Source: Pseudofabraea citricarpa
Taxonomy: Eukaryota; Ascomycota; Leotiomycetes; Helotiales; Dermateaceae
Direction of reading: 5' to 3'
Length of the DNA stretch: 64,000 bases
Assembly (NCBI GenBank): GCA_029641185.1
Contig: JAPWGK010000015.1
Span: 310,001-374,000, forward strand
Every line of letters starts with the position of its first letter. Position 1 is the stretch's first letter. This document shows, one piece after another, positions 3,001-34,157 of this stretch. The position numbers and the translations under genes were made by a program. Under the pieces are notes generated by a model that ran no database searches, was not told the origin of the DNA, and saw only the letters and a list, made by a program, of their open reading frames with translations.

Positions 3001-3062
3001 TTTTGTTACCGACATCCACAAGTTACTTTGGTGTTCAGACATAACTCGCAACCAACAACATC
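1..3062. other. Gene-poor region, nothing recognised
   Basis: Only short open frames without recognisable motifs occur on either strand (the longest about 119 codons near the left edge). The sequence is AT-rich and irregular, unlike the coding stretches elsewhere. A short imperfect tandem duplication (two 26-bp copies) lies at 1993-2044. It could hold decayed repeat or gene remnants, but I can support no gene. Confidence 0.5.
1993..2044. repeat. Two tandem 26-bp copies
   Basis: Two adjacent 26-bp units (1993-2018 and 2019-2044) differ at only a few positions; both share the core GCTAATGCA. It is a simple local duplication with no evident function. Confidence 0.6.
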
Positions 3063-4109
3063 ATGAAGATGGGACGTAGCATTGCCGCGCTCGGCATGAT
3101 CACTATTTTAAACATAACATCAGCAATGGCGCAGAATATGTCGTACGGAGCCGACAACTTTTACCGCAATGACAACGTGACGGTTCAACCTATCACCTTC
3201 CAGACTCAATTCCAGACGACTGTCGCCGGCAATATCTTCACCCGAAACGATCTCAATCGCAGTGCCGTTGCGCCGGCCATTGTAGTCGGCCATCCTATGG
3301 GTGCAGTCAAGGAGCAGAGCGCCAACCTCTACGCCACGAAGATGGCCGAGCAGGGCTTCGTGACAGTCTCACTCGACCTCCCGTTTTGGGGCGCCAGCGA
3401 GGGTATGCCGCGCAACGCCGTATCGCCAGACTTCTACGCAGAGGCGTTTAGCGCAGCAGTTGATTATTTGGGAACGCAGGACTTCATCGATCGCGAGCGT
3501 ATTGGTGCCCTTGGCATCTGTGGTAGCGGCTCCTTCGTTATCAGCGCAGCCAAAATCGATTCCCGCGTGAAGGCTATTGCAACCTCGAGCATGTACGACA
3601 TGGGCTCTGTCTTCCGCAACGGGTTGGAGAAATCCCAAAGTGTCGAACAGCGCAAGGAGGTCATTGCGGGTGCTACACAGCAGCGCTGGATCGAGGTAGA
3701 CGGCGGCGAGATTGAGTATATGGGCGGCACCCCGAATGAACTCACAGCGGAGTCAGGTGCAGTCGATCGCGAGTTTTACGACTTCTATCGCACCACTCGT
3801 GGTGAATTCACGCCTGAGAGCACGACGGCAAATCTCACGACGCACCCAACCCTCTCAAGCCACGTGAAGTTCATGAATTTCTACCCGTTCAACGATATCG
3901 AGACGATTTCGCCGCGTCCCATGCTTTTCATCTCGGGTGACCAAGCACACTCGCGCGAGTTTAGCCAAGACGCCTATGAGCGTGCAGCCGAACCAAAAGA
4001 GCTGATTTGGGTGGCTGGCGCCGGTCATGTCGACCTTTACGATCGCGTGGATCTGATCCCTTTCGATAGGCTCACCCAGTTCTTCCAGACGAACCTGGGG
4101 GCAAACTAA
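3063..4109 (+). CDS. Secreted alpha/beta hydrolase, dienelactone-hydrolase/YcjY-like
   Basis: A single-exon 348-aa protein. Residues 1-23 form a signal peptide with a hydrophobic core and an AMA cleavage site before Gln24. The body is an alpha/beta-hydrolase fold: an oxyanion-type HPMG segment near residue 78, an FWGASEG turn, a nucleophile elbow GICGSGS in which the likely nucleophile is Cys as in dienelactone hydrolases, an Asp in the SGDQ strand and a His in AGAGHVD near the C-terminus. The substrate is unknown; the family contains esterases and dienelactone hydrolases. The gene has no introns, its coding sequence is visibly more GC-rich than the roughly 3 kb and 1.5 kb of empty sequence on its two sides, and the protein resembles proteobacterial periplasmic hydrolases. 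Horizontal origin is therefore plausible but not shown. A role with the downstream mycosporine genes is not supported. Confidence 0.82.
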   Translation: MKMGRSIAALGMITILNITSAMAQNMSYGADNFYRNDNVTVQPITFQTQFQTTVAGNIFTRNDLNRSAVAPAIVVGHPMGAVKEQSANLYATKMAEQGFVTVSLDLPFWGASEGMPRNAVSPDFYAEAFSAAVDYLGTQDFIDRERIGALGICGSGSFVISAAKIDSRVKAIATSSMYDMGSVFRNGLEKSQSVEQRKEVIAGATQQRWIEVDGGEIEYMGGTPNELTAESGAVDREFYDFYRTTRGEFTPESTTANLTTHPTLSSHVKFMNFYPFNDIETISPRPMLFISGDQAHSREFSQDAYERAAEPKELIWVAGAGHVDLYDRVDLIPFDRLTQFFQTNLGAN

Positions 4110-5207
4110 GAGGCCGGGAAGCGGGTATCTTTGCTCTCTCGCGAGGGTCAGAGCATATCATACAGGGCTTGTGAGTGTCGCTTTAAAAAGGAAAAGTGAA
4201 CGAATCGGGATACTATCGCTAGGCTTGTGGGTGCAGTGTTCAGCAAGTAGAACGTGTCTTCCAGAGTAGAGGATGGAACTTTGGATTGTCCACTTAGTGT
4301 CAAATAGTATTAGATTTGGTTTCAAAAAATGCTTTTCCTAATGCTCATCGTTATGTTCCTGAGGTCCAAAATTTGAGTGCTGCGGATGGCGGTCGTGGTA
4401 GCTTCTGGTATAGCAATGAGCTGGGAGACTGCAAAAGGGGTAGGGCTTACGGTATGTCCAGTACAACGGCAAGCCCTTGTCACAGGATTCAAATGAAGAT
4501 TTGAAGCTTCGTAGCTTCCGTCAAACGCAGTATCTGCCACACAAATTAATGCTCTGGCGTCGAGTGTACACTAATTAGCCGTATATACCATTCCATTTCC
4601 TGGAGGCTGGTAATATCATCAATATTCTGATTTGTAGAGTCGGAATCTCTCTGAAGGGGAGGGTCGTATTGAACTTCAAGGAGAGAAAATCATGCCCATC
4701 TGCAGCAAACTTTTCCTTCTGCTCTCACGGACTAGATTTGTCTCGTGAGTGAGGCATGTGGTAATGTGGTAAGGCCAGCTAGGTCGTCGTACGGATGCAC
4801 CGGAGCGTTGATTGTTGCTATTACCGTAGCCATGCCTTGCCCTCCAGAAGAATGAAATATAAACGAGGGGTTGGCACAGCAGGAGAGGTCAATGGTCGAG
4901 GCACAGCCTACTTTGTACGGCTCGGGAGGTTGGTGAGAGGAGACGTCGAGGGGCTGCGCTCGCAGAAAAGAGGCGGTGATCGCGCTGGATAATACGATGT
5001 TGGCAATTCCAAGGGAATGACCAGGGCCAAAGAAACTAGAACAAGCCTCTTCGTATTTGGGGATTGGTAGTTCGTGGATGCTTAAACAGGATCAAGCAAC
5101 GCAAACGAAAGAGTGATGTTGAGATCCGTGGATGGCTGCACACGTGACTGTGGTTCGCTCGCCTAATTGTGCAGCTAATCGGCTTAGCGAGCAAGACTGT
5201 CTATGTA
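4110..5207. other. Intergenic, nothing recognised
   Basis: No convincing reading frame, RNA gene or repeat family is visible between the hydrolase stop and the TIR element. Short frames here lack motifs and overlap on both strands. Confidence 0.5.
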
Positions 5208-5366
5208 CGGAAGGGGGTTACAAGAATCAAGGAGCACCCCCATGTAGGCGGTGAATAGGAACCGACCATAGAACAACTGAAGTTTCTACAAACTTCTCCA
5301 CGATTTTCCTTATCAAGTACTGGCAGAAACCGGGGGGTGCTCCTTGATTCTTGCAACCCCCTTCCG
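5208..5366. mobile_element. 159-bp MITE with 34-bp terminal inverted repeats
   Basis: The left end (5208-5241, starting CGGAAGGGGGTT) and right end (5333-5366) are inverted copies of 34 bp with one mismatch. The element is flanked on both sides by the dinucleotide TA (5206-5207 and 5367-5368), as expected of a Tc1/mariner-type target-site duplication. The interior is about 90 bp and non-coding, so it is a non-autonomous element. It sits about 280 bp upstream of the A-T-R reductase start codon. The family is assigned only from the TA flanks. Confidence 0.8.
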
Positions 5367-5648
5367 TACGGTGGTGTCACTTCGAGAACTCATGACGTCT
5401 TGATTTTCGAAGTCAATTATCCACAACGGCAACCATTCCGTTCTAGGATATGCACCAGGAGCAGCATGCATAGCGCATACCTACATTCATAACGACATGT
5501 CAACATTGGCATCTCAAAAGTTGTCAATTTACGAAAATGTATGACACAATGTTTCTAGCCCAGTGATCAGAAACCTTATTTGCGGACAGTTGGTACGGAG
5601 GCACTTCGAATCAAGAATAACCCCTCAACTTTCTGTGGTTCAGCAAAA

Positions 5649-8600
5649 ATGTCGAGTTCTACCAAAGATGCAAAATTTGGGGGTAGAGTACTTCCTGCGG
5701 CTAACTATTTTACCTGCACGTTGGGTGAGGCTGCAATTCTCGACCGAACGAAGCCTCATTCACAGGCTACAATCAATGATTTTCTCGATTATCAAGCAGA
5801 AACAATTCCTCTACTACCAGCTGTGGCATTTCCAATTCCGGGGCTTGATGGCCAGGACTGGACGCATGAGCTTCTCAGTAAGAATTCACGACATGCACCC
5901 ATTGGTAATGTCACAGGATGCAAGCTGACGAAATCTAAGCATTTCGGGATCTCAGAGATAATTCAGCTACTGTAGCGCACAACTTGATCAACTCTTTGCC
6001 TGACCTTCAACACGATGAGAGTAGCAAATCTACATGTGTAGCTTTGATTTGCCCAAGTTCGCTAGAGTTTCTACTTACGTGGCTGGGTTTAATCAGAGCT
6101 GGATTTCAGGTGTTACTTATTTCGTATGTAGCTACCTTGGCATTTTCAAACCTTCTCTGATTTATACAGACCAAAATGTGGCCCAGAAGAGATCACACAG
6201 CTTTGCAGGACTTGCGAAGTGAGTGTGTTGTTCTATGATACCTCGCTTGAAGAGACCATGAAAGTCTTAAAGTCAGACCAATCTTTCAATTATCACATTC
6301 GAGGTATTCCGTGGCAGGAATCAGGCAAGCCATTATCGACTGTTCTTCAATTAACCACAAATTCGAAGATCCACACAAAGGATATACAGCCATCAGATAC
6401 AGCTTATCTTCATCATACATCGGGCACTACTAGCGGCATGCCAAAACCAATTGCTCAATCTCATTTCGCAGCGGTCGGAGCTCTACCAAACTTAGCCGGA
6501 CAAGATTCATCAACGTTTACCACCACACCTCTCTACCATGGAGGCATAGCAGATTGTTTTCGAGCCTGGACGAGCAATGCACTAATCTGGCTATATCCCG
6601 AATCAGAAGTCGCTATTAGCGCGAAAAATATTGTCAAAGTCCTGACTCTCGCCAAGAGCCAGGAGCATAAGCTCCCACGAGTACGATATTTCTCCAGTGT
6701 GCCTTATGTCTTGCAGATTCTTGCCGAGGATGAATTGGGGTTATCTTGGCTCAAAGAAATGGATTTAGTTGGTGTTGGTGGTGCTGCACTACCAAAGAGC
6801 ATAGGAGACTCTCTGGTTGCGGAGGGAGTCAAACTAGTATCACGTTATGGAAGTGCAGAGTGCGGGTTCCTGCTATCATCACACCGGGATTACGAAACTG
6901 ATAAAGATTGGCAATATCTGAGTCCTCCGTCCAAAAGTTTGTATCTCAGTTTCGAGTTGCAGAGTGATGATAGCGGATTGTCAGAATTGGTCGTTTTGCC
7001 TGGATGGCCTCACATGGCCAAGAAGAACCGCAAAGATGGTAGCTGGGCTACTGGTGACCTGTTTGAGCCACATGCTCAAACGAAAGATGCATGGAAGTAT
7101 CATTCAAGAAACGATGGGTTGATTACGCTGGTAACGGGAAAGAAGTTTGATCCTTCTCCTTTCGAGGAAGACATCTGCAGTTCTTCGGCAATTATCAACG
7201 AGGTTCTTGTCTTTGGGAGCGGCAGACAATATCCAGGAGCTTTGATATTTCCGAAGGTTAATCCAGGGCTAGATTCGACCAAAGATATCATCACTGAAAA
7301 AGTTTGGAAAGATATCGAGAGCATCAACCAACAAGCACCAGCACATGCCCGAGTATCAAAAGATATGCTTGTTATTATGGAGCACACACCAAGTGCGCTT
7401 GCGAGGAGCAGTAAAGGTACAGTCCTTCGAAAACAAGCTGAGGAGAAGTATAAAGCTTTCATTGAGGCAGCTTACGAAGAAGATACATCGTCAGAAACAC
7501 TCAGTATTCAAGACTCCGAAGTGTTTTCCTATGTCCAGGAAATCATACAGCGAGCCATCGGGAGTCAGAAAATTCTGAACCCACACGAGGATTTTTTCTA
7601 CCAAGGAATCGACTCGGCAAAGTGTGTTCAGATTCGGGCACAGTTACAAAAGGTACCTACTCATTCAGAATCGTTGGGGAATGAATTGCTAATAAAGGTC
7701 TAGATCGTACCAAAAGCCCAAAAGTTACCTTGGAATGTGGTCTATGATCAGGGAAATGTGCAAAAGTACTTAGAGCTTCCCACTATTTCCCTTCGTTATT
7801 CATCTGCTAAGATTCGTGCTGCAGCCTTTCTGAATTTCTCATCCAGATCAGAAATGGTTCGCTAGAAATTACGACAAAAGACGAGACGCGATTGATGCTT
7901 GATCTCGTAGACAAATACTCCAGATTCGACCATCCTGCAGGTTTTCATACTCAAAACGACCAGACAAATCAGCATGAGAGCAAACATACAGTGGTAAGCC
8001 ATTTCTACAAATTGCCAACCCTTGTAAATGCTGAAAAGCACAGTTACTTACCGGGGCCACCGGCACCCTTGGAGTCAACACCCTTTCCCTTTTGCGAAAT
8101 GATACCTCAGTCGCCAAGATAATCTGTTTGGTTCGGGCGGAGAGTAATGCTGCAGCACATTCTCGTGTCTCTAAAGCTTTGCAACAAGCGAAGAAAGAGG
8201 AGCTCAGCCCAAACGACAAGAAGGTCCTATGTTTAGCGGCCATCATATCTGACTCGAATCTCGGCCTTTCCGAAGCAGAATTCTCCATGGCTAAACAAGA
8301 GAGTACAATTATCATCCATGTAAGCGAACCCCCCGAAGAAAACCGACAATTTGTTAATTTCCCTGAAGACTGCATGGGCTGTAAACTTCAGCCTCCCACT
8401 GCAAAGCTTCGTGCCCGATCATATCAGCGGTCTTCACAACCTCTTAAGCATTACCAGCAGTCAAGAAACCCCAGCAAGGTTTATCTTCTGTTCGTCGACC
8501 GCCAGTGTTCTCGGCCCCGGTCACGACCAAAACATCCGCGAGCAGATATCTGAAAACCCGAATGATTCGGACACGCTTGGGTACTCGAGGAGTAAATGGG

Positions 8601-9256
8601 TAGCTGAAGCGATTTGCGCTCGTGCTTCTCAACTGGGAGCAAGAGTGTCCGTTCTGAGAATCGGCCAGCTCACAGGCGATACGCTCACCGGGGTGTGGAA
8701 TATGAAAGAGGCGTGGCCGCTTATGCTCAGTACCTCTGTACCGGGTGTCCTGAATTGCCTGCCAGCTTTGAGAGAGAGGATTGCTTGGCTTCCTGTTGAT
8801 ATTGCTGCTCATGCTGTGATTCAAATCGCGCTTTCGAATTCTGTCCAGAGACAGACAGAATGCTCGGTATTTCATGTCGCAAGTACCGATCGGTCTATCA
8901 CTTGGATGGACATCCTCTCCTGGGTGCAGAAAACACGCAAGGGCGATGAACAACCTTTGCAGATTGTTTCTCCTTATCTATGGCTTGAGAAATTAGAGGC
9001 TTTGGAAACTGATCATCCTGCGAAGCAGCTTTTGGGGCTATGGAGAAAGGCGTATTCTGATCAAGAAACGGAGAATGAAAATGGCCAAAATACGAAGGAG
9101 ATTCTTGCATCCGGACCGCATTTCATTACTGAGAGGACCAACGAAATTATGGGTGAAAGAGAATGGAGTGCATCTGGGGTAGATGAGCAACTTGTCAGAA
9201 AGATCTGGAATTGGATGGAGGGAGAGATGGGAACGGACAAAGAAGTGAACAAATAG
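5649..9256 (+). CDS. NRPS-like adenylation-thiolation-reductase (A-T-R) carboxylate reductase
   Basis: Seven exons by eye (5649-5877, 5940-6123, 6170-7652, 7704-7765, 7825-7993, 8044-8319, 8369-9256) give 1,096 aa. Adenylation domain about 20-540: HTSGTTSGMPKP near 221 (A3), YGSAECG, WATGDLF, and RSSKGTV with the A10 Lys. The thiolation domain carries GIDS with the phosphopantetheine Ser620. The thioester reductase about 705-1095 has the Rossmann motif TGATGTLG at 712-719 and the catalytic pair Tyr873/Lys877 (YSRSK). There is no condensation domain. Enzymes of this layout activate a free carboxylate as AMP-ester, load it as thioester and release it by NAD(P)H reduction as aldehyde or alcohol. 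It converges on the ATP-grasp gene and stands with the cyclase and O-methyltransferase. I infer that it reduces the amino-acid carboxyl of a mycosporine or its precursor; an aryl acid or other acid is the alternative. The ATG at 5649 is the first that fits the domain start. Confidence 0.9.
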
Positions 9257-9869
9257 TTTCGAAGCGGTTTCTTATACGCCGAAATATATATAATTTGACA
9301 GATCAGATCAGATCAGATCAGATCAGACAATGAAATATTTTCTCCATTCAACTCTCCCTTCAACCAAGAAGTGACAAAGTAGTTTTTTACAAACTCAAAC
9401 ATGTCACTTTGCCAGATCATGTGAGATCACACAAGGAAGTGGTTTTCCCGTTCGCCTCTCCCCCCAGCCAAAAAGTATAAAGCGCAAGCCACTATCTCGT
9501 CATGTTTAGGACAACCAGCAGGCATTCATCGACGGGGGATCGTACATACCACCCGAAGCCACATTAGCAGCATTTTCACCAACTTCTCTTCTGGTCACAA
9601 GCAGCATCGACAGGTCCTGAGGACGTTTTTGCACATCTGATTCTTTGCGTTTGGCATGTTCTAAATCGTTCGGTTGTCATACTCTACACGGTTGTCAGAG
9701 GATCATCCACACGCACACAGTTGTCTTTGGAGGCTATTCTGTTGTCAGAGGCTATTGTGTTGTTACTCGGGTAATGAAAGTCCGGCGATCTGCAAAAAGA
9801 AATCCCGAGGAAAGAAACGCTGTCATTGTACATTGTATTATATACATAGCTAGCTTCTTCGAAACTTAA
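9257..9869. other. Convergent intergenic region with (GATCA)5
   Basis: The 3' ends of the reductase gene and the ATP-grasp gene face each other here. A perfect (GATCA)5 array lies at 9301-9325, close to the reductase stop. No gene is recognised. Confidence 0.7.
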
Positions 9870-11387
9870 TCAACAGCCAAACATCTTGCCTGTGCTCACG
9901 TTGCATCTACTCCACCAGCTGCTCTTCAGGACAGCGACCAGAAACATAGCCGGCCAATACGCGACATATAACCAGAAGGCCGGCCACGGATCCCAGAATT
10001 CAAAAGTGCCATCTTTCCAGTGCAGTAAATGCGTGACAAACTCAGTTGTTTTCTTTTCGAAAGCCTTGAGGGTTATCTCTGCTCTGAGAAGACTGAGTAA
10101 GGGCAAGAAAAGCCTTGTGACAACATCATGACCAACCCAGTAAACACCGCTTTCATTCGTATTGTCGGGCTGTAAGATGATCTCTTTGTCGTTTGAGGGT
10201 TCTGTTGATAGGAGAGAGAGGTAGATCTGCGAGAGTTGGCGGGATTTGGTCGAGAATAATACCACGGCTGTGTGGGCACGAGGATTGCATTCGATCGGGT
10301 AGATGTTCGTTAACAACTCCTCAATTTGATGCTCTTCCTTCACGGCAGACGGAGCATATCCAGAATCAACAATGAAATCCAATGAGAAGTGACCTATGAC
10401 CTGATCATCCATCGACTGGACATAGAGTTCAGTGTAGCGCGCCATAGCTTTCGAGAGAATGCCCTCAGCTGGTAAAGTCTCGTAGTGCATCAGGATATCA
10501 GCTGACGGGCAAGCGACAAACGCCTTGACCTTGCCTTTGAGAACGAGAGCATGTGTGCAATATTCGCGACCATCGACGTACTGCTGCAGAACAAAGGGCC
10601 TCTGAGGCGAGAGGCTGGATTTCTGCAGGTGTATTTGCGTCTGTGGAGAGCTTGCAAGAGGAAGAAGTGTCATATCTGCACGACTTGAATCCTCCATTCC
10701 CACCGGCTTAAGAATAAACCGCTTCTTACTCTTCTCTCTCTCTTCTCCATGTAGGATAGACAAAGCTTCATCCTGCGAGACCACAAGATGCGTCTCAGGG
10801 ACATTCAAGCCCACACATCGCGTGTTCTCAATAAACGTATACTTATCATGCAGAATCTGCGTGAGGTTCTTCGAGAACTGGACCACTTTACAGCTCGTCT
10901 GTTTCTGTACGGCATCTGCGGCAATCCCATCCTCTAGAGCTGTAGCGACTCCCGAGCAGCTGACCCAGAGCTCGATCTTCTCCTTCTTGATAATCTCGAC
11001 CAGCTGGGTGGTATATCGCTTAGAAGCTTCTCCCGAACTCGAGCTGGGCCGTGACAGGCGGTAGAATTTGGCGAGGCTGCGAGAGAACCTCCCACTAACG
11101 GGGATCAAGTAAGGCTCGAAATCGGCCCCGACGACTTGGTTCCCATCGAGGTGAAAAGCGCGTGCGAGGAACAGCCCTTTGGACATTCCTACGCCGGTCA
11201 CAAGAACGCGTGCACATGACTTTGGCGGTTGGGGTTTCTTGATAGCTGGCGAAGAAGTGAGGATGGAGAATGCATGGCTAGAGATAGCGATTACCGCACA
11301 GAGAGGAGCGAAGAGAATCGATAGGAACACCAGAGCTAGATTTTGCGCGACGTGTAGATATGTAGGTGAGGTGCTGCTGAGCGGCAT
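9870..11387 (-). CDS. ATP-grasp ligase, MysC-like (mycosporine synthase)
   Basis: A single-exon 505-aa protein starting at an ATG on the minus strand. An N-terminal hydrophobic segment (about 17-38) precedes a Rossmann-like pre-ATP-grasp domain (VLVTGVGMSKG near 61-71). ATP-grasp features follow: Lys227 in FILKPVG for ATP binding, the peptide-grip loop QQYVDGREY at 268-276, and the metal-binding Glu366/Asn368 in YPIECNPR. The C-terminus is again hydrophobic and tryptophan-rich (464-490), suggesting membrane association. In cyanobacterial mycosporine clusters the ATP-grasp enzyme MysC phosphorylates 4-deoxygadusol and joins it to an amino acid through an imine/enamine. The neighbouring cyclase and O-methyltransferase support that role. 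Which amino acid is used cannot be read. Confidence 0.86.
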   Translation of the reverse strand: MPLSSTSPTYLHVAQNLALVFLSILFAPLCAVIAISSHAFSILTSSPAIKKPQPPKSCARVLVTGVGMSKGLFLARAFHLDGNQVVGADFEPYLIPVSGRFSRSLAKFYRLSRPSSSSGEASKRYTTQLVEIIKKEKIELWVSCSGVATALEDGIAADAVQKQTSCKVVQFSKNLTQILHDKYTFIENTRCVGLNVPETHLVVSQDEALSILHGEEREKSKKRFILKPVGMEDSSRADMTLLPLASSPQTQIHLQKSSLSPQRPFVLQQYVDGREYCTHALVLKGKVKAFVACPSADILMHYETLPAEGILSKAMARYTELYVQSMDDQVIGHFSLDFIVDSGYAPSAVKEEHQIEELLTNIYPIECNPRAHTAVVLFSTKSRQLSQIYLSLLSTEPSNDKEIILQPDNTNESGVYWVGHDVVTRLFLPLLSLLRAEITLKAFEKKTTEFVTHLLHWKDGTFEFWDPWPAFWLYVAYWPAMFLVAVLKSSWWSRCNVSTGKMFGC

Positions 11388-12003
11388 CGTGACTGCTTGG
11401 AGACGAAAGTGAAATTCCTCTCGACGTCGGAAAGGAAAAGCAGGCCACGCAAGAAGAGGAAATGTATGATTCGGGTCTAGTCGTCATCCGAGCCTTTCTT
11501 TCAAAAGTAGCATGTTCTTAAGTTTTTGCTTACTCCCAAACATGTCTAGACTGGCAAGTGGGCTGGCATACATGCAACGACGTCATCACTTTGTTGACTC
11601 GCAGGTCTTGCATTTCCGGAGCTAATGTATGGCAGCAGAATTGTCTTGCACCTAGTAACCAAAAATCAAACGATTTTCTGCACCCATTCTGATATATGAT
11701 ATTTATTTCAAGGTGGGGGAACTAGAACAAGTCTAGACTATTCGTGAAGTGGGCATGGAAGTTTGCCATGGTGTCACAATAACTGGGAAAACAAACACAC
11801 AGGTTTGACACTTATCCGTCCAAGAGAATTTATGATCTAAATAACTATAGCGATTCGCGAATTAAATCTTTAGATTCCATCAATGGCAAGAACCAACTCA
11901 TTGGCTCTTATCCTCGCCAAGACATCGTGTCACCTCAACGCCATCCTATCAAAACATCAGCAAGGAGATGCGAGAAAACAAAGAATTTTTAGGATGAATT
12001 AAT
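11388..12003. other. Intergenic, upstream of the ATP-grasp gene
   Basis: This holds the promoter side of the ATP-grasp gene and the 3' side of the O-methyltransferase gene. I see no gene and no repeat worth naming. Confidence 0.6.
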
Positions 12004-12876
12004 TCAACGTACCGGTACTCCAGTAGGCTCAAAGCTGTTCACGAGTTTGCTCTCATAAATCAGATGCGGGTTTCCCTTGACATCTGAGCTCAAAACCTCG
12101 ACGCCGTTATACTGCGTCGCAGCTCTGCCGGGGAAATTCTCAGTGTCGGCTTTAGCCGCCACCGTGAGCTTCAATCTCTTCTCGTGCACACTGCTGCGCA
12201 CGTATTCGAGGTATGGCGGGTTTCCAGGCTTGATGACGTTGTCAGCTGCGAGAATGGTTCCTTTCTGAATGAGGCCCAATTCCTCGCATAGCTTGAGATC
12301 GGTCGTATACGCAGGCTTATAGTGGTCCAGAAACATCATGTTGATGTTTTGGATACCGCGAGAGTGCAGCTTCTTGATCCCCTCGTCGCTGGGTCCGACG
12401 ATGACTTCTACGGTATCTTGAAGGCCTGCAAACTCAACTAGTGTCTGAATGACCTTTGCGAACTTGGGGCTCCTCTCTAGGGAATAGTAGTTCTTCCCAC
12501 CTGCTTCTCGGACTGCTGAACTGAACAAGATGGTCGAGTAGCCGCAGTAGCCTCCGAGTTCAACCATCACTTGTGGTTTGGCTTCTCGGATTAGATTCGT
12601 GACGATCTGACCCTTGTCCTCGCCCACATTCATGAGATATTTCTTGGTGCGGCCAAACTCATCAATGGCTTGCAGAACTTTTGCTGGAGATCCCTGAATG
12701 CTGGCTTTCTTGGGATGGTTGACGACAAACTCCACGAGCTCTTCCTCTCGGCCATCATCGAACTAGACGGATCAATATCATGCTGACCCGTTGGATAGAA
12801 ACAACCATACAAAAACGTCTTCTTGCTCGGCATAGGCCTTGCTGGTATCAAACTGTGAGTTGCTGTTGATCGTCAT
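12004..12876 (-). CDS. COMT-type class I O-methyltransferase
   Basis: Two exons (12811-12876 and 12004-12762; 48-bp intron with GTATGG donor and CTAG acceptor) give 274 aa. The SAM-binding strand is VELGGYCGYST at about 89-99. Metal ligands match catechol O-methyltransferase: Asp168 in FLDHYK, then Asp196 and Asn197 in ADNVIKPG, 28 residues apart as in mammalian COMT, with the catalytic Lys171. It is therefore a Mg-dependent, SAM-using methyltransferase acting on a vicinal diol or enediol. In a mycosporine pathway this step methylates the cyclase product to 4-deoxygadusol; that is inferred from the neighbouring cyclase and ATP-grasp genes. Taken alone, a generic catechol methyltransferase would be equally possible. 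It is divergent from the cyclase gene across a shared 1.6-kb intergenic region. Confidence 0.9.
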
Positions 12877-14444
12877 TGTTATTGTCTCGATCACGGTTAT
12901 GTGTTTTCAGCTTGGTTGTCGAGCTTCTTCGAGAATTACTAGTTAATGGGTGTGCGAAAGCGATGACACAAACTTTGATGTGTGTTTTTCGGATTAAGCT
13001 GAGAAGTATGACTTCATTAGTCTAGTCTATGTCTAGTCCTGCTATTGAAACGTGGTTCGGTCAGCTTGCGGCTCCCGTGTATGCATGATGCAAGGAAGAG
13101 AGAGAGAGGAAGAGAGAAGGGCAGGACAAGAACCAAGAGCTAGCGTACCGTAGGAAAACGTTCTAACTTGAAAAGAAAATAGCAAGGGAACTCGTGTTCG
13201 TGTTCGGGGAGGCTGTTTCTTGCCCGGTAGATGTCAAGAAGTCTAAGTTCGAAAGCTTCAAAGGGGATGCATCGTTTGCAAGAGGACGTCTAGAAGCGGG
13301 GAAGGCCGGCCAGAAACTCTAACCAAGGTTATCATTCAGGAAGCCGGGCAAAAAGTCGTGACGAGATGGGGTTTCTCGGCTAAGCGAGCCGCTGGCCACC
13401 TACCACCCCCACTGTTACTCTTCATTGGCCCGGCGCCAGGAACCATGCAAGGTCCAATCGCCATAGAGCCGCTCCAAGAAGCCTGGCCCGGTTGCAAGCT
13501 GCACGGGTTTGTGCTGTGCGGAAGTATGTACTTACAGTACTGTATCATGACAGCTCTCATCATCTTAGACGTGCAGCGAACAAAACCTAATCTCTCGCTA
13601 TCCCGCGATCTGCACGTCGCTAATCGACCGACATGTACTTTCGTACTGTACTACTGTAACCCTGCCAAGGTCTCTCTCCCTTTAGTGCATTCTGCTATGC
13701 CCCCGCCTCCTCCTCCGCCTCATCTTGCTTGCGGCTTTTCCCCTCTAGCCCCCCACACGGGAGTTTAGGTTTCCCTGCATAGTCGTACAGTGCAGTGCAG
13801 TGCGGTGCGGTGCAGTGCAGGACGGGTCCATACCGTAGAGCACAGCATGCAAAAGAGCCAACCTCACATGCAGAATTTGGAAATCCGATGCGGGCTAGAG
13901 TCTTGCACCTGCGCACCATCTTTGTACTATCTACCTAGGTACCTCCGCAGGCCCAGAGTCCGACCAATCAGCGAGGCACCTTGTGGCCGTGGAGCACGTC
14001 TAGCAAGTCTCTCTCTGTCTGCCTGTCTCTCCTTAGCGAGCCAGAGTGTCATGATCGGAGCACTTTTGGCAAAAGACGTCGTACGGTTTAGGTTCTAGAC
14101 GCTTGCCCTTGGGCAGCTGAGCTAGCTAAGCACCAGGCACTTGCGACAGCTCAGAAATTTAACCAAGAACCGACTCGGGTCGGGTTGGGATGTACAAGGT
14201 TCAACTACCTACCTTGTGTATGTATCATGTACATCCTTAGATGGCTTGATGGCGTGATGGCATGGATACCTCATCGATTGTTCTTACATGTATGTCATGG
14301 ATTCTGTCGAGCTGGCTCTCCTGGACATGTTAAAAAGCTCGCGTATATCCAGTACCTTTTGATGTACCAAAGCAGCATCATTCTCCAGCAGTCTCTCTAA
14401 CTGAAGAGTTCCTCTCATAAAAGTTCTTTCTTTTTAAAAAAAAA
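12877..14444. promoter_or_regulatory. Shared divergent upstream region of O-methyltransferase and cyclase
   Basis: A 1.57-kb stretch between two divergent pathway genes, so it must hold both promoters. It contains a run of GTGCA/GTGCG units (about 13788-13822), a TACCTAGGTA palindrome (about 13932-13941), TACAGTACTGTA-like palindromes near 13530, and an A-run directly before the cyclase ATG. Short frames on both strands show no protein motifs. Co-regulation of the two genes is inferred from the arrangement. Confidence 0.55.
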
Positions 14445-16224
14445 ATGTCAGACCTCAAAGCCACCGTCTCGTCGACGACGTCCTCGTCGGGCCATGCAGG
14501 CTTCCACGTCGAAGGCTACGAGAAGATCGAGTACGACTTCACCTTCATCGACGGCGTCTTCGACCCCTCGAACCCGAACCTGGCCGAGTGCTACAAGCGC
14601 TGGAAGCGGTGCCTGGCCGTGACGGACCTCAACATCTACAACGTGTACGGCAAGCAGATGGAGAGGTACTTTGCCCACTACGGCATCGAGCTGAAGGTGC
14701 ACAAGACGAAGATCGGCGAGAAGGCCAAGACGATGCCGACGCTGCTGAGCATCGTCGACTCGATGACCGAGTTTGGCATCTACCGCAAAGTTTGTACTCT
14801 GGCCTACGAACACCATAAGCTGAACACGCCCGAGGAGACCAAAAGTAGCTAACGAATGCTGCAGGAACCTGTCCTGGTTGTGGGAGGAGGACTCGTAACC
14901 GACGTCGCTGGGTAAAATAGCCCATACTCTAGTCCCCTGCACTCCAGCCCCCGTCCTCTCTCCTCTTACCTTCTCTCCTTCGCTAAAGAGATGAGCAAAA
15001 TCCCCAAAAAAAAAAGCCAGAGATGATATCAAGGCACTCTCCCAAACCTCTCTTTCTCCTCTCTCTCAGCCATCTCCAGAACCTTCGCTAACCAGCGCTC
15101 GCTCGCTACAGCTTCGCATGCGCCGCGTACCGACGCAACACGAACTTCATCCGGGTGCCGACGACGGTCATCGGGCTGATCGACGCATCCGTGAGCATCA
15201 AAGTCGCCGTGAACTACGGGAACTACAAGAACCGGCTCGGGGCGTATCACGCGCCAATCCACACCTTCCTGGACTTCACCTTCCTGCGCACACTGCCGAC
15301 GGCCCAGATCCGCAACGGCTTTGCCGAGCTGATCAAGATCTCGACGTGCGCGCACCTGCCGACCTTCGACCTGCTGGACCAGTACTGCGAGCAGCTCATC
15401 GAGACCGGCTTTGGGCGCGCCGATGGCTCGTCAGAGGAGCTTGTCCACGCTGCTGACACTATCAACCGCGAGGGCATCCATGAGATGTTGAAGCTGGAGA
15501 CGCCTAATCTGCACGAGATCGGCCTGGATAGAGTGATTGCTTACGGACATACGTACGTACACTCCTCTCCCGATTTGCACTTCATATTTACTAACAAAAA
15601 GAAATTAGCTGGTCGCCGCTCCACGAGCTGGTGCCAGAAACACCGCTCCGTCACGGCCATGCCATATCCATAGACATGGCCTACTCAGCGACGCTAGCAA
15701 ACAACCGCGGTCTGCTATCCGACGACGAGCACCGCCGCATTCTGAAGCTGTTCTCGCGCGCCGGCCTGTCGATGGACCACTCGTCTTTCACAGCCGAGAT
15801 CCTCGAGAAAGCCACGACGGCGATCCTGAAGACGCGCGACGGGCTGCTGCGCGCCGCCGTGCCTAATCCCATCGGGACGTGCGTCTTCTTGAACGACGTG
15901 TCGCAGGAGGAGATGGAGAAGGCCCTCACGAGGCACAAGCAGCTCATGAAGGAGTACCCCCGCAATGGCGAGGGTCTCGAGGCGTTTGTCGATTCGAGTG
16001 ATACGGGATATACGGAGAACGAGAAGAGCACCGAGGAGGTGAAGGTCGAGGCGGCGGCTAAGAAGGCCGGTGAGGCTAATGGCACGAATGGGCATGTTGA
16101 GAGTCCTGCTTCGAACGGCGTGGCCAAGAAAGAGACGAATGGTATCAATGGCCATAAAATCGCCAATGGGGTTAATGGACATGCCAAGGAGACTGCGAGG
16201 GCCCTCTCGTTTGTTCACTCTTGA
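14445..16224 (+). CDS. Sugar phosphate cyclase, DDGS/EEVS family (MysA-like)
   Basis: Four exons (14445-14789, 14865-14911, 15112-15552, 15609-16224) give 482 aa. The second intron is 200 bp, long for this locus. The protein belongs to the dehydroquinate-synthase superfamily. NAD-binding [11 protein letters not shown] lies at 122-132, followed by the sedoheptulose-phosphate-cyclase signatures [16 protein letters not shown] and [10 protein letters not shown]. Likely zinc ligands are Glu203 (AELIK), His277 (YGHTWSP) and His293 (LRHGHA), with spacing like EEVS enzymes rather than true DHQS. The reaction is cyclisation of sedoheptulose 7-phosphate to desmethyl-4-deoxygadusol or 2-epi-5-epi-valiolone. 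With an O-methyltransferase and an ATP-grasp partner the desmethyl-4-deoxygadusol route is favoured; sequence alone cannot fully separate the two. The last 60 residues form a low-complexity tail with repeated NGxNGH units. Confidence 0.93.
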
Positions 16225-17056: not shown

Positions 17057-20000
17057 CTATTCGACCTTGGCCTTCTTGGGCGTCTTGGGCACACGTGCGA
17101 GCCAGTAGAAGAACACGGCTGCAGCGATGTTAAACATGATGTACACCCACATCAGGCCAAAGTTTCTCCATCTTTCGGAGTACTTGGAGCTGACGCTGGC
17201 CAAGAAGACGTTCGTGTACTCTGTGGTGCAGTAGTTGCAGTTGCTGGTGGCGTTGATGGTATCTGCGCTGACGTATCCACCTGCCTCGGCAATGTAGTTT
17301 GCCATGTAGGCACCGCATGTCTCTCCGGATGGTGGGTCGAAATGAAGTAGCTCGATGCTACTGCAAACAACCTTTGCGTTGGCAAGACCAGTAGACAAGA
17401 CACCTGATACTAGATAGGTAAACGGTGATACACGGTACATGAAGATCCAGAAGCCTGGGAGAGCGGAAGGACCGGCGAGGACACTGTGACATGATTAATA
17501 AAGGGATCTGAATATAAAAGGTGGCAAAACATACCCGCAGAAGATCAAGCAAAGAGAGAACATCAAGTTGCCAATATTTCCAGCTGATTCTGCTGTATCT
17601 ACACCAGCGATAACCATGTTCGTAAAGGTACTGGTGAAGAGCAAGAAAGTCTGGATGAACAACATCATCAAGGCACTACGCTCATGGAGTTGACCGGCGA
17701 ATTGAGCATTCTTGTACATTCCGATAGGATAATACCAGCAAATGAAGATGATCAGACCCATGAGAGAGTTCCAGGGTAATTCAACGATGATGTTGGAGAG
17801 CATGAATACTTGCCACGAGTAAGTCTTTGATGGGCGCTCGCGTACTTCATAGAGGGATCGTTGGGTGACGAAGTGGGGCATGATCTGCTGGGACAAGTTG
17901 CCGAAGATGGTTAAGAGCATGAAAATACTGAACATCTGATTTTGTAGACCTTGAAGGGAAGTTCCGGCGTCGTAGAACGAGAATCCGATAAACAGGGACT
18001 ATACAGGTTAGCCAAGGAAGGTACGTTGGAAATCATGATGACATACCGAGAAGAGACACAATGCAACCTTGGAATACAAGTAAGATGGTGTTCGCCAATA
18101 TTGCTCGAACACTCGTACTACGACAGTCCAAAGTTGGAGACCGAATGGAGCGGCGAAAGAGTCTAAAGCGAATGGGTCCTCTTCAACTGGCTTTTGAGAG
18201 AGGGTTGATTTCATCTCAGCAAGGGTTCTCTTGACTTCTCTTCTCTCTTCGGATTCTTTCCAGACTACTGGCCAGTCGATCGTGTTTTCAGAACCAGGAG
18301 CGGCACCAATAACGTCAAGCATCCATTCTAATTTCAACGCGTTAGTATACAATACACATGAAGATCGATTTATGCTTACCAGCAGGGTTCTCATCAGCAC
18401 CACAAGGGCGGGATCCATTTCTCTCGAAGTAGTTGGTCAAAATCTTTGAGCTTTGGCCGATCTCTCCGAAGTAGACAGTCCTTCCACCCCTTGCGAGGAA
18501 GAGCAGGCGATCGAATTCTTGGAACAGAATAGCAGATGGCTGATGGATAGTGCAAAGAATAGCTTGGCCGTTGTCAGCAAGTTTACGCAAAAGAGCGCAG
18601 ATAGACCAGGCAGTTTGACTGTCGAGACCGGAGGTAGGCTCGTCGAGGAAAAGCAGCAATTGAGGTTTAGCAGCCATTTCGACACCAATAGTAAGTCGTT
18701 TTCGCTGTTCGACGTTGAGACCTTCACCAGGTACACCGACGACGGCATCCGCGTAGGATTCCATTTCGAGGACCTTAATGACTTCTTCGACGTATTGAAG
18801 CTTCTCAGCGATAGGGGTAGACTTGGGCTGTCTCAAGAGAGCACTGAAGTTCAATGCCTCCCGGACTGTGGATGTACCGAGATGGAGATCTTGTTGTTGA
18901 ACGTAACCTGTCTTTCGCTGGAAACCAGTGTCTCGTTCTCGTCCATCGACAAGCATTTGACCGCTGACAACACCCATGGTAACACGACTGGCAAGGACAT
19001 CCAAGAGAGTGGTCTTTCCGGCACCTGATACACCCATCAAAGCAGTAAGCGTACCTGGGCGGACCCAACCATCAACACCGTCCAGCAATTTGCGAGGTTC
19101 GTTCTTGATCTTGATATCGTAGTTGACCTCGTCCCAATGGAAGATAGCAGTTTGCTTTTGAATACTTGGTGGGGCATCTGGGACGGTCTTCTCACGTGTC
19201 AGGACCTGGGTGGTAACGCGATCATCGGGTCTGGACTCTTCATCGTTGGCTCGAGTCGTGAGAGTTGGAATTGCAGTACGAGGGAACAACAAAACTTCAC
19301 CCTTGGATTTCTTGGCTGAGATATACTCAGTGCAAACCAAGTAGATACCACAAGTGAAGACCATGAGAGCAATGAGGATACCAAAGTTTCTACGCGCGAC
19401 ATATTAGCCTAGACCAGTTTCGCGGGAGTGGGAGTTCTGACCTCCATAAGTGGTCCTTGTTGTATTTGAACGTGACCTCGATGTAAGAATCACCATTGAG
19501 GAAGCTTGCTCCTGGCTCGGAGCCAGTTGCGGAACAAACACGTCCAAAGTCACTAGCATCGGCATAGTTGGGCACGAATAGTGAGCATGGAATATCTCGG
19601 CCGGAGAACTGAGAATGATTAGCAAAATGGTGTCAATGTGGGAGTGCTAGGCATACCTCATTGATCATCAAAGCCTCGAACGCATAAGCCACAGGATCCA
19701 GATAATTGAGCCATCTGAACCAGGGATGCATGTCTCCAGTCGGAATGACGAATCCGGTGTAAATGACAAGTGCGAGGATCAGAATGGCTGCTGGTGCCAT
19801 TGCCTGTGACAGAGTCCGCGATGCCGATGCAATCGTACGGAAGATCATAGACATGCAGAGTACGCAGGTGAAACTGAACAGTAGGAAGACAAAGAAGTGC
19901 CCTGCAGTTCTTCGGAGATTCGTCATGAAGTAGATCGTGATATTGAACATTAGAGCAACACCGATTTTGCTAGGTAAATCGCATAGCATGGATGCTATGG

Positions 20001-22027
20001 CTTCGGCGAAGGGGTGATAGAATGCATACTTGGCGTGCTTCTCGACAATAGGTCGTTGGGCATAAAGAGTCAAAATCTGTTCCTGTCAGTGATAGACAAT
20101 CTATTAGTAGAATTTTCCTTACCTCAAGTGCACTTGCAAAAGCGTTGAGCAAAATAGCAAAGAAGAGCAATGCGCCACGGCTGTAGAGAACGCCAGTAGT
20201 ATCCTCTAGATTAAAAAACACACTCGAGACAATGAGTGCCATTACACCATTTGCAAAGATGCCGGAAAAGAAGATTGTCATATCACCACGCAAACGCTGG
20301 AATCCTCTTTCGAGGCATAACTTGACTTGTCCACCGACGGACAATGTGTATGGAGATTTAACACGTCTATAAAGAGATTAGTAGAGAAAAGGGCTACTAC
20401 GAGGGCAAACATACTGTCCCTTGGCTTGGGCAGCCTTGCGCGAATCCGTGAACTTGCCAAGCGCTTCTCCGCCAACAGGGTACTGTTGGTTGAAGGCATC
20501 GATTTCTTGCAAGAGCTGGGCTCGGTCTTGACTCGCGTGCCAAACAGCCGCAAACTCGTCTGGGGTATAGGGAGTCTTGCCCTCCCAACCGGGGCGGGTA
20601 ATACGTTCTGCCGGACTGGTAATGGATGTGAGGAAATCGGCACTGCGATGCGTTAGAATAATCCTATAAAGTCACATGATCAAGTAACTGACGTTGTCTG
20701 ACGTTCTGGGCAGTCAAATCCCATGTCGAGGAAGAACTTCTTTGCCGCATGGATATTACCGAAATAGATTTGTCTTCCCTCGTACAGCAGCGCAACCTTG
20801 TCAAAAATCTGTCATCGTTAGTGGGGGCCAACACAATTGGCGATTTTTAACGTACATCGTAAATTGATTGCGAAGCTTGGTAGATGGCCACAACAGGTGT
20901 GCAACCAGTCGTTTCCGCTGAATGTCTCAACGTCTTGACGAACTCGAGAGCAGTAGCACTGTCGAGACCTCTAGTAGAATTATCCCAGCACTGCAGAGGA
21001 CTTCCACCCAGTGCGGCTTCAGCGATGGACACACGCTTTCTCTCACCTCCACTAACTCCTCTGATGAAATCGTTGCCGACCTTGGTGTTCAAGGTGTGGG
21101 ATAGACCGAAGATGGCCATGATCACATCTCGCATGTGAGCAGCATACTGCTTGCGTGAAACACCTGGAATTCTGTTGCGTGGTGCTCTCGCTTGTGCAGC
21201 AAACATCAACGTCTGACCGACAGTCAATTGCGGGAAATGGACGTCGACTTCAGCTTGGTAGATACACTCTCCTCGGAAGTCTTTGTGCATCATCTCCATC
21301 GGGATACCTTGATAGTTGATCTCTGAAGCGGTGTCGACAAAGAAGCCATCGGTCTCTCCTGAGATTGTCTTCAATAGAGTCGAGCAACCACTAAAGCATA
21401 AAATTAGTTCCTGTACTAATATCCCTTTCATCGGTGAGATCTATACCTTCCCGGACGTCCTAGCACTACCAACATCTCACCACTTCGGACCAGACCATCG
21501 AAGTTTCTCAGAATCTGGATCTTGGATTTCGTCTGCTTTCCCATAATCTTCTTCACCAAACCCGGGATCTCCAGCGGGTAATTGCCGAAAGTCTTTTGGT
21601 AATCCGTCGCCTCGCCGAAACCGTGGGCGCTCAAGTTCTTGTAAGCGATACCTGCGGTTCTCTCTGGATACCTCTCGGGGTCGCGTGACTGCAAGGCGAA
21701 CAGAGCTTTGGACCAAGCTTTGGCGCTGAACTTTCCTGATCTGGGGTCGAGGGCAGGATCGTCAGATCCCAAGAAGGGGTTGACGTGCTCGCCGTGTCCA
21801 TTCTTGACGGAAGCTTCTGTGATGGCTCGTGCCAGTTTGTTGACCTGCACCTCTTCCTCGTCTGAGGAGCCCAGTGTCGAGGTGCCCGTCTGGGCGGTCT
21901 GTGTCCCGCTGGCCATGCGTTTCTCGTCGATGGTGCCTGAGATTGTCTCGTCGAGTGAAGTGTTCCTCTTGTCTGAATCGTATGCCTTCTCCGCGGCGGG
22001 CGCATCCCAAGGGCCTGAAGAAGCCAT
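17057..22027 (-). CDS. PDR/ABCG-type full ABC transporter
   Basis: Eleven exons (21447-22027, 20856-21390, 20693-20808, 20415-20642, 20123-20366, 19657-20076, 19442-19608, 18380-19389, 18047-18327, 17535-17998, 17057-17483) give 1,490 aa in the order NBD1-TMD1-NBD2-TMD2. As in fungal pleiotropic drug resistance pumps the two ATP sites differ. NBD1 has the deviant Walker A GRPGSGCST (Cys for Lys) and WDNSTRG, but a canonical VSGGERKR signature. NBD2 has canonical Walker [10 protein letters not shown] (Lys889) and Walker B Asp1013/Glu1014, but a degenerate LNVEQRKR signature. It is a plasma-membrane exporter of amphipathic compounds. It is convergent with the cyclase gene, so export of a mycosporine or of a toxic compound is possible; the substrate is not readable. 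The start used is the first ATG (22027). Confidence 0.95.
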
Positions 22028-24373
22028 TGCTGCTGGTTGACCGAAGGAGAGTCGTTTAGCAGGTGTGGGCGTGCGAACTAACAACGAGCAAGCCGAGCTT
22101 TACCAACGTTATTCCTGGAGGTTCTGCAGAAGGGAGGAGGAGATGTGGAAAAGCTGGGGGGGGCATATTCTTTTAACGCGGCGAGCACACACCACACGCA
22201 ACCAACAACACCCAAGGCCAAGGGTTCGTCGTCGCCAAGTTGGACTCGGAATTAAAGTAAAGTGAATGCTCTCAGTGAATGCTCCGCCCAGGGGACGAAC
22301 ACGACGGGGTGTGAAGGGGGCCTGTCAATCGGCCGAATCAGGGGTCCAGGCAGGCGACAGCAGGGAGAGAGAGTGTGGGCTCAGTAGTGGAGGCACAGCC
22401 AACAGCCAGACAGAGATGGCACTGGGCAGAGAGTGAGAGAGAGGGTAAAGATGCTCGCTATTTTGCTTTTTGGGTGGGTCTACGGGAAGATGAGTTCAAT
22501 GATTGATTATCTTATCGCGTCTTCCGGATATCTGGAGCAGCCGATCCGGGAATGAGAAGTGGCACGTCAGCCATTGGCTCAGGAACACGACACTGACACA
22601 ACAGCTAGAGGCAATTCGTGCAGAGTACGAATACGACAGCAACGATCAAGTCAGGAGATGGTTTTATACATGTCATGTCAAGCCTCAAGAGCCCATAATA
22701 ATGTGAGTACCCTCCCTCGATATTCAGGTTGGCCAGTAGATGATCAATTGGGATGTACATGTATAGTACATACACTGGCAACAGATCAGCTTCCGTCTTA
22801 TGCATATGTTATTATTATTATTATTCTTCTTCTTCCTCTTCTCACTCCTCTTCCTCAAACACGGCTGCAGCATCACAGACACACACACACATACATACAC
22901 ATACACATACAAACCCAAAGTGTGGGTCATGGCACGAGGGGTGCTGACTCTGCTGAGTCCCGGCTCGAGCAGTGGAGGCAAAGCGGCTTGCGAGATTCCC
23001 ACACAGCTACAACAGGCGAGTGAGTCTGTCGCCGCCCGGAACTGGACAAAACTCCTCCGTCCACGGCGGACGAGCCTTACCCGCATCTTCGGGTCATCTT
23101 TGCTACCGAACTTGTGTTCTCTTGTGCATCATCTCGTGCTTGTTCCACCAGACACCAGAGCGAGGGCCAGAGGGCAGATCCACGATGGGACGCATCTCGC
23201 TTCCATGGGGGACCCTGGAGATCCGAGGGGGGTTGCATGCTCTTGTTCTTGTTCTTGTGCTGTGCTTCATAAATATATGATATGATACTGTATGATGAAT
23301 GATGATGACACGAAGTGACGAAGCAGATAGCCTGTCAGCGACGACGAGAGACCCCTTCTCCCCCATTCGGGCAACTCACCCACTCCATCATTTACCCAAT
23401 TCTATTTTCGTGGTGATTCCCGTCATGGGCTGGAGGCACGGCGGCCGCACAGAGCAAGAGGGGTTTATGAGAGGCCATGGATGCTGGATGGATGCTGGAT
23501 GCTGGATGCTACCGTACCGTACCGTGGGCACGCCGCAGTAGGGGGAAGGCGTAGCGAGATGGCAGAAGAGAAGAAAGAATCACCGGATGCGGGAATGACA
23601 GCTGCCCAGGCGAGCGAGCGGAAGTAAAAAGGGGGTGATGCTTGTGTGTGTGACTTGCATCTCGCACTCGTTGTCGTTTCGTCGTCGTCCCATTCGTCAT
23701 GATGATTCATAAAAAATAAAATCAAAAGGCTCAACGGGTACTGTTCAGTACTTCACGGTAAACCTTGACAAAAACTCTACCGAATCCTTGTGGGGTACAG
23801 GACGGACGGTATGACTGTTGGTGGTGATACGTTGTACTGTATGGTGCTGCGTTGGCGAGCGCTTGGAATCCTTAAACCATTATCTCCGCCTGTTAACGGC
23901 GGTTGTTTTGAGCGAGCCTGTGCCTGTGCCTGCCATCAACAGCAATCACTCTACTCTGGCTGCGGGCGCTTCGGCCGCCGACGACATTCTTGTCATGAAT
24001 GCGAGATACGAGACGACAGGCCGAAAACTCTCTTTCTTTGCGGACAGCATTCCGCAAGTCTAGGCGACCTGGAGCGCCCACGGCGGTGGAAGGGAAGGTT
24101 AATCACTCTGCAAAAACAAAAACAAAAACAAAGACAAACCATCAACCATCGCAACAAGATGATCCCAAGCCCCCCTCAAGCCCACATCGATGTCAACGAT
24201 ACAACACCCCCGGACCTGTCAGCCGTAATGTTGTTGTCCATTGCACCTTCATCTCACGGATCTATCAATATACCTGTGCAATCTCCGCAATCTTCAATCT
24301 GCAATCTGCAGTCTGCAGTCTGCTGCACAGTGCACAAGGCTTCCTTCTAGAAGATGGCTGCAGGGTTGACCTG

Positions 24374-33498: not shown

Positions 33499-34157
33499 TT
33501 TGAGAGTCTTTTTCAAAGTTTTCGCGAAGTTGCAGTAACTTGTTAAAAAACAACCTCAGAAGTGAGCTTATTATACACTTTCAGATGGCAATCAATTTGT
33601 CTTTTTCTCCACAGCATCTAATTGTGGTAGATGTTTTTACAGCGTTCTGACCATACATCCCAATAAAGTGTGGGGTAATGAGTGCGGGATGTGGACCGCC
33701 ACCTCCGGAAGCACTTCGTGGTCTTTCGTGCCTATCGGAATGCTTTAATTTGACACATACGAGTCACGCGCCACCCGGATAGCAGTGGTTTGTTTCGAAT
33801 CCGTATTCGATGTCTCCAGAAATATGGAAAAGTAAAAGTCCGTGGCTTTCCCACGGTCGGCTTTAACGGGCGAAGGCTATGAATAGAGGGTTGCATTGGG
33901 ACTTTTGTGTTGGCTGCATATTTCGCAATTATAGCATATTCGAAGATAACTTAATTACGAAGTTCTTTTGGGTCATGACTCAATCTGCGAGATTATCTGC
34001 GTGTGGTTAGAGCCTATGGTGATATCCCATGAATTGATGCTGAGACGTGCATGAATTGAACATTTGCAGGAGAGATAAATGTTGTAAAATATAAATCAAA
34101 TTCATTCGTCTGCTAACCGACTTGCATGGATTCATGACATATTCGCTGTAAGAAAAA
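33499..34157. other. Intergenic, promoter side of the fused hydroxylase gene
   Basis: 659 bp with no supported gene. It contains several CGG/CCG triplets (around 33690-33790) of the sort Zn2Cys6 regulators bind, but no clear spaced palindrome that I would call. Confidence 0.45.

Follow-up and report, generated by a model that had tools for sequence, protein, structure and literature searches.

Fungal mycosporines carry amino alcohols, unlike most bacterial ones, and the question raised by the locus described here is how the reduced end of these compounds is made, since no enzyme is named for this reduction in the open-licence papers among our literature matches. The locus occupies positions 5649-16224 of a 64-kb stretch of the 44-Mb genome assembly of Pseudofabraea citricarpa, a relative of an apple-rot species; we call this stretch the window, and all coordinates refer to it. 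Within the locus, genes for a desmethyl-4-deoxygadusol synthase (DDGS), an O-methyltransferase (OMT) and an ATP-grasp ligase (ATPG) lie beside a gene for an adenylate-forming reductase with adenylation, thiolation and reductase domains (A-T-R). What is new here is that the A-T-R is not a casual neighbour of mycosporine genes. The best explanation of its presence, to which we assign a probability of about 0.45, is that it reduces the mycosporine-amino acid formed by the ligase. This answer draws on the four genes and their intact catalytic motifs, on their conserved linkage, and on the joint branching of the corresponding genes of Venturia.

Linkage was assessed with protein searches followed to the best 120 relatives of each query (out of 893 matches for A-T-R, 3239 for DDGS and 1262 for ATPG), where each row of the listings stands for a cluster of sequences and shared contigs were recognised by equal contig sizes. 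Nineteen A-T-R/DDGS and seven A-T-R/ATPG pairs fell on the same contig. With two paralogue cases dropped from the species count, the A-T-R shares a contig with DDGS or a cluster-type ATPG in 23 of the 32 decidable species, where contig sizes would predict 0.8-1.1. By locus tag the linked genes are adjacent in Claussenomyces (002762/002763) and three genes apart in Oculimacula (6783/6786) and Cadophora gregata (010804/010807), while A-T-R and DDGS lie together on a 17.2-kb contig in Lachnellula occidentalis and on a 35.8-kb contig in Podosphaera aphanis. Spacing is looser in lichen fungi and Dothideomycetes, where the genes are 23 (Xylographa bjoerkii), 25 (Neocucurbitaria, if tags step by ten), 54 (Lecanora), 69 (Meristemomyces), 76 (Oleoguttula) and 112 (Neophaeotheca) genes apart. 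The four-gene observation is confirmed as real and far beyond chance.

A second line of evidence comes from Venturia, a Dothideomycete. The A-T-R family looks mostly vertical in its tree, but the Venturia protein groups with Leotiomycetes at a support of 100; forcing it into the Dothideomycetes is rejected by the approximately unbiased test (p 3.7e-42). The same constraint on Venturia DDGS is rejected at p 0.017 without Eurotiomycetes, Cercospora and Fulvia and at p 0.0066 with all rows, and the two trees place it with Leotiomycetes at supports of 95 and 88 (the latter not starred). Venturia ATPG nests in the Helotiales cluster-type ligases (inner forks 87-91, 19-row fork 98), in a tree without Dothideomycete ATPG rows, and Venturia effusa has A-T-R, DDGS and ATPG on a single contig. 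The simplest reading of these sequences is that the cassette, A-T-R included, may have moved as a whole between fungal classes. On the strength of the linkage, this shared history and the conservation of the protein, it is highly probable that the A-T-R is a functional member of the mycosporine cluster. Elsewhere in the DDGS tree, Cercospora and Fulvia (P0189, P0213; Dothideomycetes) nest in Exophiala/Lithohypha (P0175, P0208, P0219; Chaetothyriales) with a support of 98, an apparent second transfer in lineages that are missing from the named A-T-R matches.

The A-T-R gene (5649..9256, plus strand), placed by its gene model, domain profiles and orthologue family, has seven exons (5649-5877, 5940-6123, 6170-7652, 7704-7765, 7825-7993, 8044-8319 and 8369-9256) and six GT...AG introns, with a single open frame throughout that encodes 1096 amino acids. 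Pfam recognises AMP-binding (1.4e-27), AMP-binding_C_3 (7.2e-39) and NAD_binding_4 (7.7e-36), all above the Pfam cut-off, and the NCBIfam thioester reductase model matches at 3.2e-57, slightly below its curated cut-off. The Pfam scan of this protein listed no carrier-domain match, and the thiolation domain rests on the GxDS motif, present in 115 of the 120 relatives listed, and on PF00550 in many relatives. The residue numbers given in the first-pass annotation for the carrier serine (Ser620) and the reductase pair (Tyr873/Lys877) proved exact, with GIDSAK running from residue 617 and YSRSK from 873. By its sequence the protein is a full A-T-R, with all three domains, a serine for the phosphopantetheine arm and the Tyr-x-x-x-Lys of short-chain dehydrogenases/reductases. 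It also forms a conserved family of its own: it is the sole member found in its genome, where the next paralogues are about 32% identical. The top relatives of A-T-R, DDGS and ATPG among the matches listed all belong to Phlyctema vagabunda (Helotiales, Dermateaceae), with identities of 71% (covering 79% of the query) for A-T-R, 91% for DDGS and 75% for ATPG.

All four genes lie where they had first been annotated, positions 5649-16224 having the start codon of A-T-R at one end and the stop codon of DDGS at the other, and the three core genes are contiguous, with DDGS divergent from OMT and ATPG across an intergenic region of 1568 bp (12877..14444). DDGS (14445..16224, plus strand) has four exons (14445-14789, 14865-14911, 15112-15552 and 15609-16224) encoding 482 amino acids that end in an Asn/Gly-rich tail. 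Its domain is Pfam DHQ_synthase (8.8e-31), and against solved structures it scores 490 bits with 5tpr, 254 with the next, 4p53, and at most 116 with dehydroquinate synthases (DHQS); 5tpr is the Anabaena DDGS and 4p53 is ValA, a 2-epi-5-epi-valiolone synthase (EEVS). The protein matches 24 of the 30 residues of the Ddgs-versus-Dhqs diagnostic stretch published for Phaffia and shares 75% identity with an Ascochyta fabae record that bears the name Desmethyl-4-deoxygadusol synthase. It is nearer to DDGS than to EEVS or DHQS and carries the Ddgs diagnostic stretch. A variable Asn-Gly-rich C-terminal tail of 56-105 residues occurs in 12 of 13 fungal DDGS proteins compared (those with SDTGY), and the tail encoded here (16012-16224) lies outside the 5tpr alignment.

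OMT (12004..12876, minus strand; exons 12817-12876 and 12004-12762; 272 amino acids) is COMT-like, with COMT matches down to 1.5e-44. Its LDHYK at residue 165 and ADN at 193 align with LDHWK and ADN of COMT, in which the magnesium ligands are Asp, Asp and Asn, so that the site is intact, as first annotated. ATPG (9873..11387, minus strand; 505 amino acids), a MysC-like ligase encoded by one exon and bearing a hydrophobic segment at its N terminus, matched no Pfam family and had no convincing sequence relative in the PDB; it matches NCBIfam PRK06849 at 1.1e-50, well under that model's cut-off. For the Phlyctema orthologue, the structural matches to a model with a pLDDT of 85 are ATP-grasp enzymes, with the L-amino acid ligase YwfE first by E-value, and an ATP-grasp fold is accordingly predicted for ATPG at that level of confidence. 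A second ATP-grasp ligase of the genome (4980-6698 of locus L037, G000:C12:561000-570999) is 37% identical to the cluster ATPG, with no mycosporine gene recognised beside it in that 10-kb stretch; other Helotiales also have ATPG rows outside the cluster-type clade.

The MYC cluster of Phaffia rhodozyma, as far as the available text describes it, has the same three genes with DDGS divergent from OMT-ATPG, encodes proteins of 477, 284 and 500 amino acids (DDGS, OMT and ATPG; 482, 272 and 505 here), and even shares the 1568-bp DDGS-OMT spacer, which we take as coincidence. Gene models, DDGS scores, the OMT metal site, the likeness to Phaffia and the ATPG fold all back the initial description of 5649-16224 as a mycosporine cluster, which is near certain. 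The Phaffia cluster differs in belonging to another phylum and, in the description available, in having no A-T-R.

Following the Phaffia work, DDGS would convert sedoheptulose 7-phosphate to desmethyl-4-deoxygadusol, OMT would methylate this to 4-deoxygadusol, and ATPG would couple the ring to an amino acid, most likely glutamine or glutamate. Next, the A-T-R would adenylate the carboxylate left free on that amino acid, hold it as a thioester on Ser620 and release it by NADPH-dependent reduction as an aldehyde or alcohol, the outcome being a mycosporine of the glutaminol or glutamicol type. We infer, with less assurance than we attach to the genes themselves, that the A-T-R acts in the pathway, that its substrate is the ligated and not the free amino acid, and that two or four electrons are delivered. 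Counting both possible orders, it is rather probable that the A-T-R makes the amino alcohol, and we prefer reduction after ligation. Of the original claim for this protein, membership of the cluster has become likely through linkage and the branching of the Venturia genes with Leotiomycetes, but its amino-alcohol role is plausible and unproven.

The preference for a ligated substrate comes from motif A4, whose position was set by the motif and in-genome paralogues, without a solved complex. Amino-acid-activating adenylation domains hold the alpha-amino group by an Asp at this motif. Here it reads PLYH, and the relatives read PL[YF]H in 119 of 120 and PLHH in the remaining one; by that rule the A-T-R would not be an amino-acid-activating domain of the non-ribosomal peptide synthetase (NRPS) kind, having His in place of Asp. 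Lacking the A4 Asp, it should better fit an N-substituted, ring-bearing acid, the ATPG product, than a free amino acid. Close to A4, a pattern match recovers an Asp and an Arg in 119 of the 120 listed relatives and inspection shows them in the one left, which argues for one conserved substrate; in the two in-genome paralogues readable there Ser/Thr replaces the Asp, and one of them retains the Arg. Among solved structures the adenylation domain is nearest in sequence to 4-coumarate-CoA ligases, with a proline ligase and SrfA-C ranking lower; all of these matches are weak.

Several results weigh against reduction by the A-T-R after ligation. A comparison of folds ties acyl/aryl-CoA synthetases with NpsA and an NRPS (ObiF1), which leaves the choice between an acyl/aryl and an amino-acid adenylation domain undecided. 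The first-pass annotation had also named grouping with known aryl-acid reductases as a refuting outcome, and what bears on it here is the weak sequence lead to 4-coumarate-CoA ligases together with these tied folds. The distances of 23-112 genes in six of the linked species are such that ancestral chromosome conservation alone could explain their linkage, and nine of the 32 species have the A-T-R on a different contig (Lambiella, Xylographa soralifera, Pseudocyphellaria, Circinaria, Sclerophora, Lachnellula suecica, Bipolaris oryzae, Aplosporella and Periconia), although the A-T-R contigs of Circinaria and L. suecica, at just 13.7 and 11.3 kb, are too short to judge. Botrytis, Hymenoscyphus, Exophiala, Lithohypha, Cercospora, Fulvia, Apiospora and Pestalotiopsis appear in the DDGS list, yet no named row in the best 120 of the 893 A-T-R matches belongs to them, a suggestive pattern in which the A-T-R may be dispensable. 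Mycosporine 2 was reportedly described from Botrytis cinerea; should this compound be a glutaminol and B. cinerea really lack the A-T-R gene, the case for the amino-alcohol role would weaken.

The most direct objection comes from Phaffia itself, where, in the portion of the report available, mycosporines are lost when DDGS, OMT or ATPG is deleted, and the three cDNAs together give Saccharomyces cerevisiae a peak assigned to mycosporine-glutaminol (PMC10057719). The first-pass annotation had held that absence of the A-T-R from glutaminol producers would tell against its proposal, and this three-gene cluster, reported to give mycosporine-glutaminol, goes part of the way (PMC10057719, as available). 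The yeast product was assigned by high-performance liquid chromatography retention time and absorption spectrum alone, according to the same text, and its authors have ATPG attach glutaminol directly (PMC10057719). The source of that glutaminol is itself unexplained in the text available (PMC10057719), and the reductive step, without an obvious enzyme in the three-gene set, is therefore a fair question. On the other side, the A-T-R is present in Ascochyta (rows P0048 and P0052), a genus with a producer of mycosporine-glutaminol-glucoside, and the reference list includes a 1983 title by Pittet et al. on 'reduced mycosporine-glutamines' (both from the accessible part of PMC10057719).

The alternative that survives best, though we consider it unlikely, has the A-T-R in the cluster but reducing something else, for example another acid, like the A-T-R of polyketide clusters, to yield a decorated mycosporine. 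The Phaffia result, in which mycosporine-glutaminol is reportedly reached without a clustered A-T-R (PMC10057719, available part), would be expected on this account, as would the A4 His, a reductase domain close to that of the Neurospora carboxylate reductase, and a distribution of A-T-R that is apparently patchy relative to DDGS among the best 120 matches of each. Yet no polyketide synthase or acyltransferase was seen among the 20 window open reading frames (ORFs) scanned, further enzyme genes (acetoacetate-decarboxylase-like, LigB-like, FAD-dependent and aminotransferase) begin about 15 kb or more beyond DDGS, and the pathway itself already offers a carboxylate, one that fungi are known to contain in reduced form.

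Less likely again is that the A-T-R acts before ligation, turning free glutamine or glutamate into the amino alcohol that ATPG then couples to 4-deoxygadusol. This order shares the evidence of linkage and branching, is implied by the incorporation of glutaminol by ATPG that the Phaffia authors propose in the text available (PMC10057719), and is allowed by a fold in which ObiF1 ties with the acyl/aryl enzymes. It sits poorly with the best adenylation-domain matches being 4-coumarate-CoA ligases and with the His in place of the A4 Asp, although an amino acid could still be held by the invariant Asp and Arg close to that motif. The least probable account, that the A-T-R is an independent conserved ascomycete enzyme of primary or stress metabolism merely sharing a chromosome neighbourhood, would suit the nine unlinked species, the six loosely linked ones and the habit of Dothideomycetes of keeping gene content per chromosome without order, but it is at odds with the tight linkage in several Leotiomycetes and with the joint branching of Venturia A-T-R, DDGS and ATPG, which chromosome conservation does not give.

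Returning to reduction of the ligated product, a fuller proposal can be put forward tentatively: the A-T-R would be a megaenzyme evolved in ascomycetes as a dedicated mycosporine carboxylate reductase, acting on the amino acid while this is bound to the ring as a vinylogous amide. Such a route to the fungal amino-alcohol sunscreens would differ from that of basidiomycete yeasts, and Venturia would have received the four-gene cassette in a single block from a Helotiales-like donor. If this holds, the A-T-R would explain a long-known chemical difference between fungi and bacteria, the presence or absence of the gene in a cluster would serve as a chemotype marker, and a UV-protection trait would pass between fungal classes as a unit. 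If it does not, the locus would nonetheless indicate that many ascomycete mycosporine clusters have a fourth member, whatever its role.

Clusters of this kind with an NRPS-like gene are already in print, without an assigned role. Fungal mycosporine clusters are described as three core genes in the available text of PMC10057719, and a survey of Hypoxylaceae, as far as its text was available, finds NRPS-like clusters homologous to those for mycosporine-like amino acids in most genomes (PMC8403587). The grouping of an NRPS-like gene with a mycosporine-type cluster in ascomycetes is the point of likeness, judged by description and not by sequence, and the gene is described there without product or step (PMC8403587). 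Among the open-licence papers listed as matches (in two cases 25 of 559 and 20 of 33), none assigns an A-T-R to fungal mycosporine synthesis. The glycine betaine reductase ChNPS10/ATRR has adenylation and thiolation domains followed by two reductase/dehydrogenase domains (PMC2823734); the window protein has just one reductase domain before its stop at 9256 and is not of that type. Its reductase domain resembles MxaA, the terminal part of a PKS-NRPS line, and the Neurospora crassa carboxylate reductase (26% identical to 8aep in one alignment), but the window protein is a stand-alone A-T-R and differs from the Neurospora and bacterial carboxylate reductases as a separate family with its own near-invariant A4 motif.

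The bacterial mys clusters (MysA, MysB and MysC with MysE or MysD) are alike in pairing DDGS with a ligase homologue and often an OMT. MysE ends in a thioesterase, whereas the window protein ends in a NAD_binding_4/thioester reductase domain with no thioesterase and is thus not a MysE-type enzyme. Of 98 bacterial DDGS loci found, 80 were kept; these are mainly from Actinomycetota, and some of the loci lie on short contigs. All 80 had an ATPG homologue and 53 an OMT homologue, and the window ATPG outscored its in-genome paralogue in all 80. An adenylation domain like that of the window A-T-R was found in none of the 80, with three weak reductase-like matches at 21-26% identity.

A 165-bp element resembling a miniature inverted-repeat transposable element (MITE) lies at 5205-5369, with 37-bp terminal inverted repeats that are 97% complementary and seven genomic copies, the window copy included, at 96-100% identity over full length. 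Two elements of about 1.38 kb (L119, G000:C39:1636400-1638200, and G000:C10:902742-904117) have ends matching its terminal repeats; no ORF longer than 85 amino acids was seen in the L119 element, and hence no transposase was found there. The window copy ends 279 bp upstream of the A-T-R start codon and may influence the A-T-R promoter. An alpha/beta hydrolase ORF lies upstream of the A-T-R (3045-4106, plus strand), and a PDR-type ABC transporter adjoins DDGS (17498-22099, minus strand), its frames broken by introns. Farther off, ORFs at 31166-34898 and 50408-55208 carry acetoacetate-decarboxylase-like, FAD-dependent, LigB dioxygenase-like and aminotransferase domains and are possibly other metabolic genes.

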